Under the pieces are notes generated by a model. That model worked only from the letters and a program-made list of their open reading frames with translations. It did no database searches and was not told where the DNA came from. A stretch of 11,797 nucleotides of DNA, from assembly GCA_004298675.1 (NCBI GenBank), contig SCRI01000037.1:1-11797 (forward strand). Reading direction: 5' to 3'. Positions 7,917 through 10,170 of this stretch are shown piece by piece; position 1 is the first letter of the stretch; each line of letters starts with the position of its first letter. The position numbers and the translations under genes are program-made. This DNA comes from a bacterium. GTDB lineage: Bacteria > Vulcanimicrobiota > Vulcanimicrobiia > Vulcanimicrobiales > SCRA01.

Positions 7917-8052
7917 GCGACTCAGCGCCACCTAGTGCGAAGGTCTTACGCCGCCTGGGCTGCATGAAGGTGGCCGGTACAAGCTAGCCGCTGTATCGTT
8001 CGAACAGCGGGCGGAAACGTCCGCGTGTGTGCCTCTCTCTTGGAGGATCTGT
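7917..8052 (+). promoter_or_regulatory. Structured leader upstream of the small peptide gene
   Basis: This 136-base gap, among the longest in the window, holds three inverted repeats. GCCACCT at 7927-7933 pairs with AGGTGGC at 7968-7974. CCGCTGT at 7988-7994 pairs with ACAGCGG at 8004-8010, closing a nine-base loop. GCGGA at 8011-8015 pairs with TCCGC at 8020-8024 around AACG. The last two stand side by side, then a pyrimidine-rich tract leads to the ribosome binding site. This may be a terminator region for the deacetylase gene, an operator for the peptide gene or a folded 5' UTR; no known riboswitch class is recognised. A TATCGT at 7994-7999 could be a -10 but lies within the second repeat and has no good -35. 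Confidence 0.4.
8042..8046 (+). promoter_or_regulatory. Strong Shine-Dalgarno sequence for the small peptide gene
   Basis: GGAGG lies six bases before the ATG at 8053, ideal sequence and spacing. Most genes in this window have weak or no such site, so its strength supports the 37-codon frame as a real, well-translated gene. Confidence 0.75.
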
Positions 8053-8166
8053 ATGGCGTACCTTGCACCAGAGATAGTCAGCAGCTATCTCGTACCGAGC
8101 CTCTATGCGGCGGCTAGCGGCTTTTGCAGCATCAGCACGAGCGACGATAACTGCACGGACGACTAA
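8053..8166 (+). CDS. 37-residue peptide, candidate RiPP precursor
   Basis: I do not recognise this peptide from a known family. It begins MAYLAPEIVSSYLVP and ends in a polar stretch. Residues 3-20 consist of two related nine-residue units (YLAPEIVSS and YLVPSLYAA), followed by a linker (ASGF) and a tail at 25-37 with Cys25 and Cys34, several Ser/Thr, Asn33 and four Asp. There is no Lys, Arg or His, so it is strongly acidic. This split into a hydrophobic, conserved-looking front and a Cys/Ser/Thr/Asp-rich end resembles leader and core of a RiPP precursor. The strong ribosome binding site, the hairpin directly after the stop and the dioxygenase gene downstream support this. About 27 of 37 codons end in G or C, in line with the genome's base use. 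It could instead be a regulatory leader peptide or a small unmodified peptide. Confidence 0.65.
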   Translation: MAYLAPEIVSSYLVPSLYAAASGFCSISTSDDNCTDD

Positions 8167-8183
8167 GCCGGAACGTTCAAAAA

Positions 8184-8207
8184 GGGTCCACGCCCAGGCG
8201 TGGGCCC
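8184..8207 (+). terminator. Terminator-like hairpin between peptide and dioxygenase genes
   Basis: A ten-pair stem (GGGTCCACGC, loop CCAG, GCGTGGGCCC, with one G-T pair) begins 17 bases after the peptide stop. It is preceded by AAAAA and followed by TTACTCTCT, a weak, broken T-run. It probably acts as a partial terminator, giving more transcript of the peptide than of the enzyme, or as an RNA-stabilising 3' end. Confidence 0.65.
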
Positions 8208-8253
8208 TTACTCTCTAGCAGCGGCGCGGGTGGGCGCCCCGGGGGAGAGATCC

Positions 8254-9465
8254 ATGTGGAGCCGAGAACCGAACGAACGCAGCGTCTTCGCCTGGCTGCT
8301 GTCACCGCATACGATCGAGGAGTTTGCGAGCTGGTATTACGAACGCGCGCCACTGCTCGTTTCACGGAGTTCTCCGGATTACTACCGGCGCTGCTTTAAT
8401 CTGACCGAGTTGGAGCGCGTGCTGTACGGCTCCGAGGTCGACTCGGAGGACCTGCGCGTGGTCAAGAACGGGACGCCCGCACGTCCCGAGACCTATCTGC
8501 GCGAAGGTTCACGTCGCGTGGACGCCGATCGCGTCAGCGCCCTCTTCGCGCACGGCTGCACCGTGGTGCTCGACAAAGTTCAAGCGTATTCCGGCCCGGT
8601 CCTCGAGCTTTGCCGCGGCCTCGAAGTGTGTCTGCGGCATCGGGTCAACGCCAATCTCTACCTCACGCCGTCCGGCAGCCAGGGTTTTGCCGCGCACTAC
8701 GACACCCATGACACCGTTATCTTGCAGGTGGAGGGGGCCAAGCATTGGCGTGTCTACGGTGCGCCGGTCGAGGTGCCGCTGCTGGCGCAGAAGCATGACA
8801 AGAAGAAGCATCTCGCCGGCGAGGTTGAGATCGACGTGGTGCTGCGCCCGGGTGATCTACTGTACTTGCCGCGCGGCGTCATGCATGAAGCGGTGTGCAC
8901 GGACGAGTTCTCTCTGCACGTGACGCTTGGTCTCCACCCGATTCTCTGGATCGACGTACTCGAAGAGGCCGCCAAGCGCGGCGGTCTCGACGAGGCGATG
9001 CTGCGGCGCTCCGCGGCCGAGGTGGAGCTGGCCGGCGGCGCCGGCGGTGAGGCGCTGAGTGAAGCGATTGGGCGCACCTTCTCGCCGCAACGGCTGTTGG
9101 AGACGCTGCAGGATCTGCGCAGCAGTTGGGTGGTGCAGCGCCGGAACGTGCTCGACGGACAATTGCGGCAGTTGGTGAGTCTCGCCAGTTTGACGCCGGA
9201 CTCACGCCTGGCGCTGCGCGCTCATCTCTTGTACGAGCTACGAGAGGACGAGGCCGGCACGCAGTTGCTGTTCTCGGGAAAAGTCGTGCGCTTGCCGCGT
9301 TGGGCGGCGGCGATGATACGCGATCTCGCCGCCGTGCCGAGCCTGGAGGTCGCGGTGCTCGCTCGCTACGGCGCGGAGGCGCCGGCCGTTGCGCGCCGTC
9401 TGGTCGAGGAGGGCTTCGCCGTTCGGGTGGAGTCCCAGATGCCGGCGCGCGCGCTGGTTCGCTGA
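8254..9465 (+). CDS. JmjC/cupin_4 2-oxoglutarate-dependent dioxygenase
   Basis: An Fe(II)/2-oxoglutarate oxygenase of the cupin_4 (ribosomal oxygenase-like: RoxA/YcfD, NO66, MINA53) family, expected to hydroxylate a protein or peptide side chain in the cytosol. The JmjC core (about residues 100-230) shows the iron triad His148, Asp150 (HYD) and His211 in LPRGVMHEA. Lys163 lies 15 residues after the first His, where NO66 and MINA53 carry the 2-oxoglutarate-binding Lys. A helical dimerisation region and a winged-helix-like C-terminus (about 300-403) complete the 403 residues. The ATG at 8254 is preceded by GGGGGAG at a six-base spacing; a GTG at 8200 would lie inside the hairpin and add residues unlike the family. 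Known members act on Arg or His of ribosomal proteins, but the position after a 37-residue peptide gene suggests a peptide substrate here. A ribosomal target remains possible. Confidence 0.9.
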   Translation: MWSREPNERSVFAWLLSPHTIEEFASWYYERAPLLVSRSSPDYYRRCFNLTELERVLYGSEVDSEDLRVVKNGTPARPETYLREGSRRVDADRVSALFAHGCTVVLDKVQAYSGPVLELCRGLEVCLRHRVNANLYLTPSGSQGFAAHYDTHDTVILQVEGAKHWRVYGAPVEVPLLAQKHDKKKHLAGEVEIDVVLRPGDLLYLPRGVMHEAVCTDEFSLHVTLGLHPILWIDVLEEAAKRGGLDEAMLRRSAAEVELAGGAGGEALSEAIGRTFSPQRLLETLQDLRSSWVVQRRNVLDGQLRQLVSLASLTPDSRLALRAHLLYELREDEAGTQLLFSGKVVRLPRWAAAMIRDLAAVPSLEVAVLARYGAEAPAVARRLVEEGFAVRVESQMPARALVR

Positions 9466-9519: not shown

Positions 9520-10170
9520 ATGCGCTTGCCCTCCGCGGATGTATTCGAACTGCTCCATCGCTACGGTGTCCGCACCGCGCCGCGTCTTTACGCCAGTACC
9601 CTCGAGGATGTCGTGGCCTTCGCGCGGGGCGGGCCCGTGCTGTTGCGAGCGGAGGGCGCGGATACCGCATCCGGCGAGCTGGAGGCCGATGGCGAGGAGG
9701 AGATCCGTCGTGCCTACGAGCGCCTGTGGCCCGTCGCGGTGCAGCACGAGCCGGCGCTGCTGCTGGTGCTGCGCCGCCCGCCCGCTGGGCCGGTCGTAGC
9801 GATCGACGCCGCGATCGACGAGCATGGCGCATTGGTTCTGACGCTGCTGGCGGGCCAAGCGGCCTCGCATGGCTACCCATCGACTCGCCGTGAGGCGGAT
9901 GAGATGGTGGAGCGTGTGCCAGGCTGGCTCTCTCTGCTCCACGGCGAGCGCGGGAGGAGTATGCTCTCGCACGTGTTGGTGAAGGCCGCGCGCCTCTTCG
10001 GCGACATGGAGCTGGAGCGGATGCGGCTGGCGCCCGTGGTGATCTACGAGAACACGTACGAGGTGGTCGACGCGCAGATGGAGGCCAGCCGCGCCATTGA
10101 GGTTCGCCACGAATTGACGCGGCGCGCGCACGACGTCAAGGGGTACTATAAGCCCTCGGGGCGCCAATAG
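9520..10170 (+). CDS. Degenerate ATP-grasp (acyl-CoA synthetase beta-like) protein
   Basis: A 216-residue protein that resembles the ATP-grasp_5 half of ADP-forming acetyl/acyl-CoA synthetases in layout. It has an N-terminal helix and LHRYGVRTAPRLYA (12-25), then the strand PVLLRAEG (39-46), a central domain, and a C-terminal stretch with RREADEMVERV, LLHGERGR and APVVIYENTYEVVDAQ (123-186). The likeness is from remembered family patterns. The functional motifs look lost: the usual Lys of the PVVLK strand is Arg43, the HKSDVGG loop is absent, and the metal-binding LDINP reads MRLAP at 168-172. It is therefore probably not an active ligase, or it has been repurposed. The ATG at 9520 has GTGAGGT seven bases upstream. 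It lies 54 bases after the dioxygenase gene in the same direction, and its last 35 bases overlap the convergent metallopeptidase gene. Confidence 0.65.
   Translation: MRLPSADVFELLHRYGVRTAPRLYASTLEDVVAFARGGPVLLRAEGADTASGELEADGEEEIRRAYERLWPVAVQHEPALLLVLRRPPAGPVVAIDAAIDEHGALVLTLLAGQAASHGYPSTRREADEMVERVPGWLSLLHGERGRSMLSHVLVKAARLFGDMELERMRLAPVVIYENTYEVVDAQMEASRAIEVRHELTRRAHDVKGYYKPSGRQ

Follow-up and report, generated by a model that had tools for sequence, protein, structure and literature searches.

The window, that is, the whole stretch of 11,797 nucleotides analysed here, carries a cassette of three genes, namely a short peptide gene, a JmjC_2 oxygenase gene and a small ATP-grasp-like gene, which stand in identical order in the genome of the window (G000) and in a second genome of the same genus (G002). 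The features of the cassette are the following.

7917..8001, plus strand: conserved 5' non-coding block, 75% identity between G000 and G002
8042..8046, plus strand: Shine-Dalgarno sequence GGAGG, which G002 has too
8053..8166, plus strand: gene for a 37-residue precursor-like peptide, stop included, with a same-place homologue in G002 and frame-specific pN/pS
8182..8209, plus strand: 12-bp hairpin between the peptide and enzyme genes (fold z -2.3)
8254..9465, plus strand: JmjC_2 (PF08007, cupin_4) 2-oxoglutarate/Fe(II) oxygenase of the NO66/MINA53 type (Pfam E 7e-30)
9520..10170, plus strand: ATP-grasp_5-like protein, the third cassette gene (Pfam E 4e-8), found in G000 and G002 and without a match in G001 and G003

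The ORF at 8053-8166, with its ATG at 8053 and its stop at 8164-8166, is translated as MAYLAPEIVSSYLVPSLYAAASGFCSISTSDDNCTDD and, as judged by sequence comparison, is a genuine gene. In a search of 101 related genomes a full-length homologue, MTYLAPEIVNTYFVPNLFGAVSGFSSSLGDGDNPADDGG, was found in G002 with 57% identity (E 8.6e-8), and it lies on the public contig SCRA01000079.1 in the equivalent position, about 85 bp 5' of the JmjC_2 gene, with the same start and Shine-Dalgarno sequence as the window ORF. Counted according to Nei and Gojobori, pN/pS between the two ORFs is 0.35 in frame, against 1.57 in frame +1 and 1.02 in frame +2, where only the ratio and the contrast between frames are usable because synonymous changes in so short an ORF are close to saturation. 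The first-pass annotation had taken the ORF for a short gene and mentioned cupin_4 enzymes as possible partners; it named as refutation a lack of homologues with the frame kept in close relatives, or substitutions blind to codon position. The ORF passes this test, as the reading frame is kept in G002 and the substitutions respect codon position, and a cupin_4 enzyme gene does adjoin it. A chance origin of the reading frame is hardly credible: the ORF is indeed short, and no Pfam or NCBIfam model matched it, but the frame-specific selection and the full-length homologue with its conserved start signals argue against such a reading. The distribution of the peptide family is narrow, as a phylum-wide profile search of 149 genomes gave no homologue above noise besides G000 and G002, its only two carriers, and a scan of IMG/VR did not find the peptide.

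The peptide itself can be divided into a conserved front and a variable tail, with the following parts.

8059..8076, plus strand: first [YW]xxPx[LVIAFY] unit YLAPEI, residues 3-8, from the motif scan, identical in G002
8086..8103, plus strand: second unit YLVPSL, residues 12-17, from the motif scan, YFVPNL in G002
8125..8163, plus strand: variable acidic tail, residues 25-37, the presumed core, with an alignment-based pN/pS of 0.71, which is near neutral and comes from 13 codons

Between the window and G002, purifying selection is concentrated in residues 1-24, where pN/pS is 0.19. A conserved leader and a more variable tail beside a modifying enzyme are what is generally expected of a RiPP precursor, and this arrangement is the same in the two genomes. 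The duplicated nine-residue front described in the first-pass annotation is present at residues 3-11 and 12-20, where the two 9-mers share 3 of 9 residues with a BLOSUM62 score of 21. By chance such a duplication has a P of about 0.001 for two adjacent 9-mers and 0.02 for any pair of 9-mers, and in the G002 homologue the corresponding values are 0.017 and 0.20, so that with such modest values the bare repeat is suggestive only. More telling is the motif within it: [Y/W]xxPx[L/V/I/A/F/Y] is the consensus to which most discrete lasso RREs bind, known from PQQ precursors as well (PMC13381572), the same YxxPxL motif having been described elsewhere (PMC6784204, PMC10368454), and it is found in two copies in each of the two species, with both units and the Tyr-x-x-Pro spacing retained. 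When the window peptide is shuffled, two matches arise in 0.07% of the trials, and with the G002 peptide in 0.06%, although these figures are post hoc and flatter the match, as the motif was recognised after seeing the sequence. Among 116 loci, two matches recur in only one other ORF of 25-60 residues, which is unrelated and lies on the L008 minus strand. Since the front is the conserved part and both its units match a known RRE-binding motif, it behaves like a recognition region, and to this extent the earlier idea of a repeated recognition motif in a leader stands; as for its possibly engaging a dimeric enzyme, the spacing of 9 residues between the motif starts leaves little room for two domains to bind at once.

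Alternatively, the peptide might be a small membrane-associated protein, in which a hydrophobic helix spans residues 3-21 while the tail with its acidic residues is soluble. The front is hydrophobic and has no positive charge, but over 19 residues the hydropathy reaches at best 1.2 and 0.9 in the two peptides, and two conserved prolines and a glutamate stand in the front, where the Tyr-x-x-Pro spacing is kept, and we regard this alternative as quite improbable.

In the tail, Cys25 and Cys34 as well as D31, D32, N33, D36 and D37 are present in the window peptide just as described earlier. The four residues D32, N33, D36 and D37 are conserved in the G002 homologue, while the cysteines are replaced there by Ser and Pro respectively; the idea of a disulfide between them fails on this comparison and was dropped, neither Cys being conserved. 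His, Lys and Arg are absent from both peptides, and modification is likely to fall on the acidic tail.

Around the peptide gene, the comparison with related genomes indicates that the three genes form one unit. In G001, a third genome of the genus, the deacetylase gene from the upstream side of the cassette directly adjoins the convergent metallopeptidase gene from its downstream side, and all three cassette genes are absent between them; in G003 a gene that by eye resembles a cation ATPase comes after the deacetylase, and neither the peptide, the JmjC_2 nor the ATP-grasp-like gene has a match. Moreover, the protein identity between G000 and G002 is 56-64% for the cassette genes against 75-92% for their neighbours. 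The shared order, the joint absence in G001 and the higher divergence than that of the neighbours argue that the three genes belong together, and the cassette may have been either gained once or lost in G001. It lacks a transporter, a cyclase and a protease of its own, and Pfam detected neither a lasso-type Asn-synthase-like cyclase nor a transglutaminase-like leader protease among the seven window proteins around the ORF. The ATP-grasp_5-like protein is divergent, with a conserved C-terminus AHDxKG..Y[KR]PxGxQ, and in other members of the order (G023, G056 and G048) its homologues adjoin genes that resemble, by eye, ribosome-hibernation factors.

The non-coding parts of the cassette are conserved unevenly. 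While the block at 7917-8001 is well conserved, the identity between G000 and G002 is lower elsewhere, with 37% for 8002-8038 and 43% for 8167-8253. This block is probably the promoter region of the cassette, although a sigma-70-type site was sought in it and none was found; a search across the genus for copies of it at a second site gave none convincing. It is also more alike between the two species than the tail of the peptide. The hairpin at 8182-8209 is possibly an attenuating terminator, and since so stable a hairpin separates the ORF from the enzyme gene, the ORF might be a regulatory leader peptide through which JmjC_2 expression is attenuated. Against this stand the absence of any run of a single amino acid, the lack of any Rfam family in the window, and the G002 intergenic RNA, which is poorly alike in sequence and folds well (z -3.7) but as a different structure. 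Above all, it is the amino acids and not the codons that are conserved, and for this reason the hypothesis was dropped as very unlikely.

The JmjC_2 protein is clearly assigned to its family, with a PF08007 match of 103.6 bits against a cut-off of 22 and with the iron triad H148, D150 and H211 (HxD...H) invariant in an alignment of 13 sequences. Its nearest solved structures are those of human NO66 (E about 1e-33), and its only close relative in public genome contigs is the protein encoded on the G002 contig SCRA01000079.1, which is 65-66% identical. Behind the catalytic domain there is a further domain.

9187..9462, plus strand: C-terminal RRE-like winged-helix domain of the JmjC_2 protein (model pLDDT 75, pTM 0.62)

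No Pfam model matched this domain and Foldseek gave no match for it below E 0.001, and the model of the full-length protein is unusable (pLDDT 37). With the isolated domain, each of the best 10 rows of VIA-align is an RRE or a RiPP enzyme that contains one (Z 4.4 to 3.1), among them CteB, PqqD, MccB, PbtF, TbiB1 with its leader, McbB, LynD and SuiB, and the next are the winged helix of YcfD (Z 3.0) and OmpR-type domains (Z 2.9), where the rows cover chains preselected by Foldseek and Z differences below 1 count as ties. The order predicted in the model would fit an RRE, and a profile comparison with local PqqD proteins has the correct register with a P of only 0.016. The RRE likeness, with Z under 5 and a model of medium confidence, is suggestive, and the domain is the likely, though model-based, docking site for the leader. 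Independently, PMC12710340 describes an RRE-like domain fused to PF08007 in proteins whose bacterial homologues lie in RiPP-like contexts. However, such a domain does not by itself mark a RiPP enzyme, because a C-terminal winged helix, one without an agreed function, is common to all ribosomal oxygenases (PMC6182338).

It is conceivable that the JmjC_2 protein belongs with the ribosomal oxygenases and has a ribosomal protein as its substrate, like NO66, MINA53 and YcfD, and that the peptide is real and unrelated, only sharing the operon. The unclear role of the winged helix in this family (PMC6182338), NO66 as the closest solved structure, and one JmjC_2 clade with no short upstream ORF are in favour of it. 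On the other hand, JmjC_2 proteins are patchy, being found in 13 of 101 relatives and in 16 of 147 genomes of the phylum, the enzyme and the peptide travel as a cassette that is absent from G001, and unrelated short ORFs recur 5' of other JmjC_2 genes. We therefore consider this reading unlikely, while it is the strongest of the alternatives.

The recurrence of short ORFs is seen from the 20 JmjC_2 loci examined. Besides G000 and G002, JmjC_2 is preceded in seven further genomes by other short ORFs whose tails bear Asp or Asn, on the same strand, with a Shine-Dalgarno-like site and just 5' of the enzyme gene, and Asp is present in every tail; G010, where the short ORF has an Asn-rich end, is a less sure case. 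In G139 the precursor MNTKPSKKEPWETPVLLPLDLSKAAGGVNFGDEPVFTGLDIDGDFGS has 47 residues with WETPVL and an acidic tail, and overlaps the JmjC_2 gene. In the JmjC_2 tree, whose deep branches are weakly supported and whose G139 and G010 rows are long, each precursor type stands on a single JmjC_2 branch, and 7 of the 18 proteins, namely one five-member clade and a pair, have no short upstream ORF. Two of the precursor types are built of repeats.

L138:6120-6386 (minus strand), L139:3175-3408 (minus strand), L066:4593-4841 (plus strand): precursors with GPADGGASGxPGVHDGGADGGADGGAE units, under purifying selection
L140:6491-6685 (minus strand), L065:2705-2926 (plus strand): precursors with PDDxGRDD repeats, in two genomes

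The former, a multi-repeat precursor before JmjC_2 (PADGG...HDGGADGG), occurs in three genera (G021, G029 and G057), with pN 0.09 against pS 0.51 between G029 and G021; the latter, of the form MQSKTR..TIWPN with PDD[QA]GRDD repeats before JmjC_2, occurs in G050 and G060, with pN 0.23 against pS 0.62. Richer surroundings are seen at two loci. At L136:4263-7714 (G139, contig 1) there is a lasso-type cluster with a divergent Asn-synthase-like cyclase, a PqqD-family protein, the precursor and JmjC_2, as well as a kinase-like gene with a distant resemblance to HPr kinase; at L057:6668-12122 (G030, contig 8) there is a RiPP-like cluster in which a radical SAM/SPASM maturase accompanies two JmjC_2 proteins and two tandem 39-residue precursors ending in YYCYGDG and YYCYGDN, with two PhyH-type genes upstream.

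Taken together, the locus probably encodes a minimal RiPP pathway, a reading in which we have fairly good confidence. The ORF would be the precursor, with residues 1-24 as a leader bearing two [Y/W]xxPx[L/V/I] docking motifs and residues 25-37 as an acidic core; the adjacent JmjC_2 oxygenase would bind the leader through its C-terminal RRE-like domain and hydroxylate the core, most likely at the beta-carbon of the conserved Asp or Asn residues (D32, N33, D36, D37). Asp/Asn beta-hydroxylation is favoured over that of His or Arg because Asp is present in all the tails, because His, Lys and Arg are missing from the window and G002 peptides, and by analogy with CanE, which together with CanB1 hydroxylates Asp in canucin (PMC9266682). 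We infer the docking, the hydroxylation and its site, the removal of the leader and the role of the product from these comparisons. A broader and rather doubtful conjecture is that this uncultivated phylum harbours a one-enzyme RiPP family of self-docking JmjC_2-RRE hydroxylases, each with its own type of Asp/Asn-rich precursor, where in the branch of the window a bivalent two-motif leader presents one core to a dimeric enzyme, NO66, MINA53 and YcfD being known to dimerise (PMC6182338), to yield a poly-hydroxyaspartate peptide. If the proposed pathway is real, a ribosomal-oxygenase-like family would be tied to peptide recognition with its winged helix as the leader-binding RRE, matched enzyme-precursor pairs small enough for co-expression in E. 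coli would be at hand, and the enzyme could serve to locate the short precursors ahead of JmjC_2 genes, which escape every family model.

Compared with known systems, the locus is best seen as a new variation on RiPP biosynthesis, with a JmjC_2 hydroxylase that has an RRE-like domain. Canucin A (CanA/CanE/CanB1, PMC9266682) resembles the proposed pathway in that a 2-oxoglutarate enzyme hydroxylates an Asp of the linear precursor and an RRE binds the leader, but there CanE is a separate Fe/2-OG enzyme and the RRE a separate protein, whereas in the window the domain is fused to JmjC_2, and canucin has a lasso protease and cyclase, neither of which is seen in the window. In biphenomycin biosynthesis the JmjC-domain proteins BipG and BpmG hydroxylate a RiPP precursor (PMC12707348, PMC12257519), as is proposed here; they differ in acting on ornithine after arginase and MNIO steps within a multi-enzyme cluster, while the window peptide has no Lys or Arg. 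Lasso and PQQ precursors (PMC13381572, PMC6784204) have the same leader consensus as the window peptide, in which the motif is however doubled, and the lasso cyclase and protease are absent among the scanned neighbours. NO66, MINA53 and YcfD (PMC6182338) share with the window enzyme a JmjC_2 catalytic domain and a C-terminal winged helix, yet the residues that they hydroxylate in ribosomal proteins are His or Arg, neither of which the window peptide has. The PF08007 JmjC proteins of PMC12710340 likewise join JmjC_2 to an RRE-like fold and have bacterial homologues in settings that resemble RiPP loci; the single passage on them describes neither a precursor nor a doubled docking motif, both of which are found next to the enzyme at the present locus.
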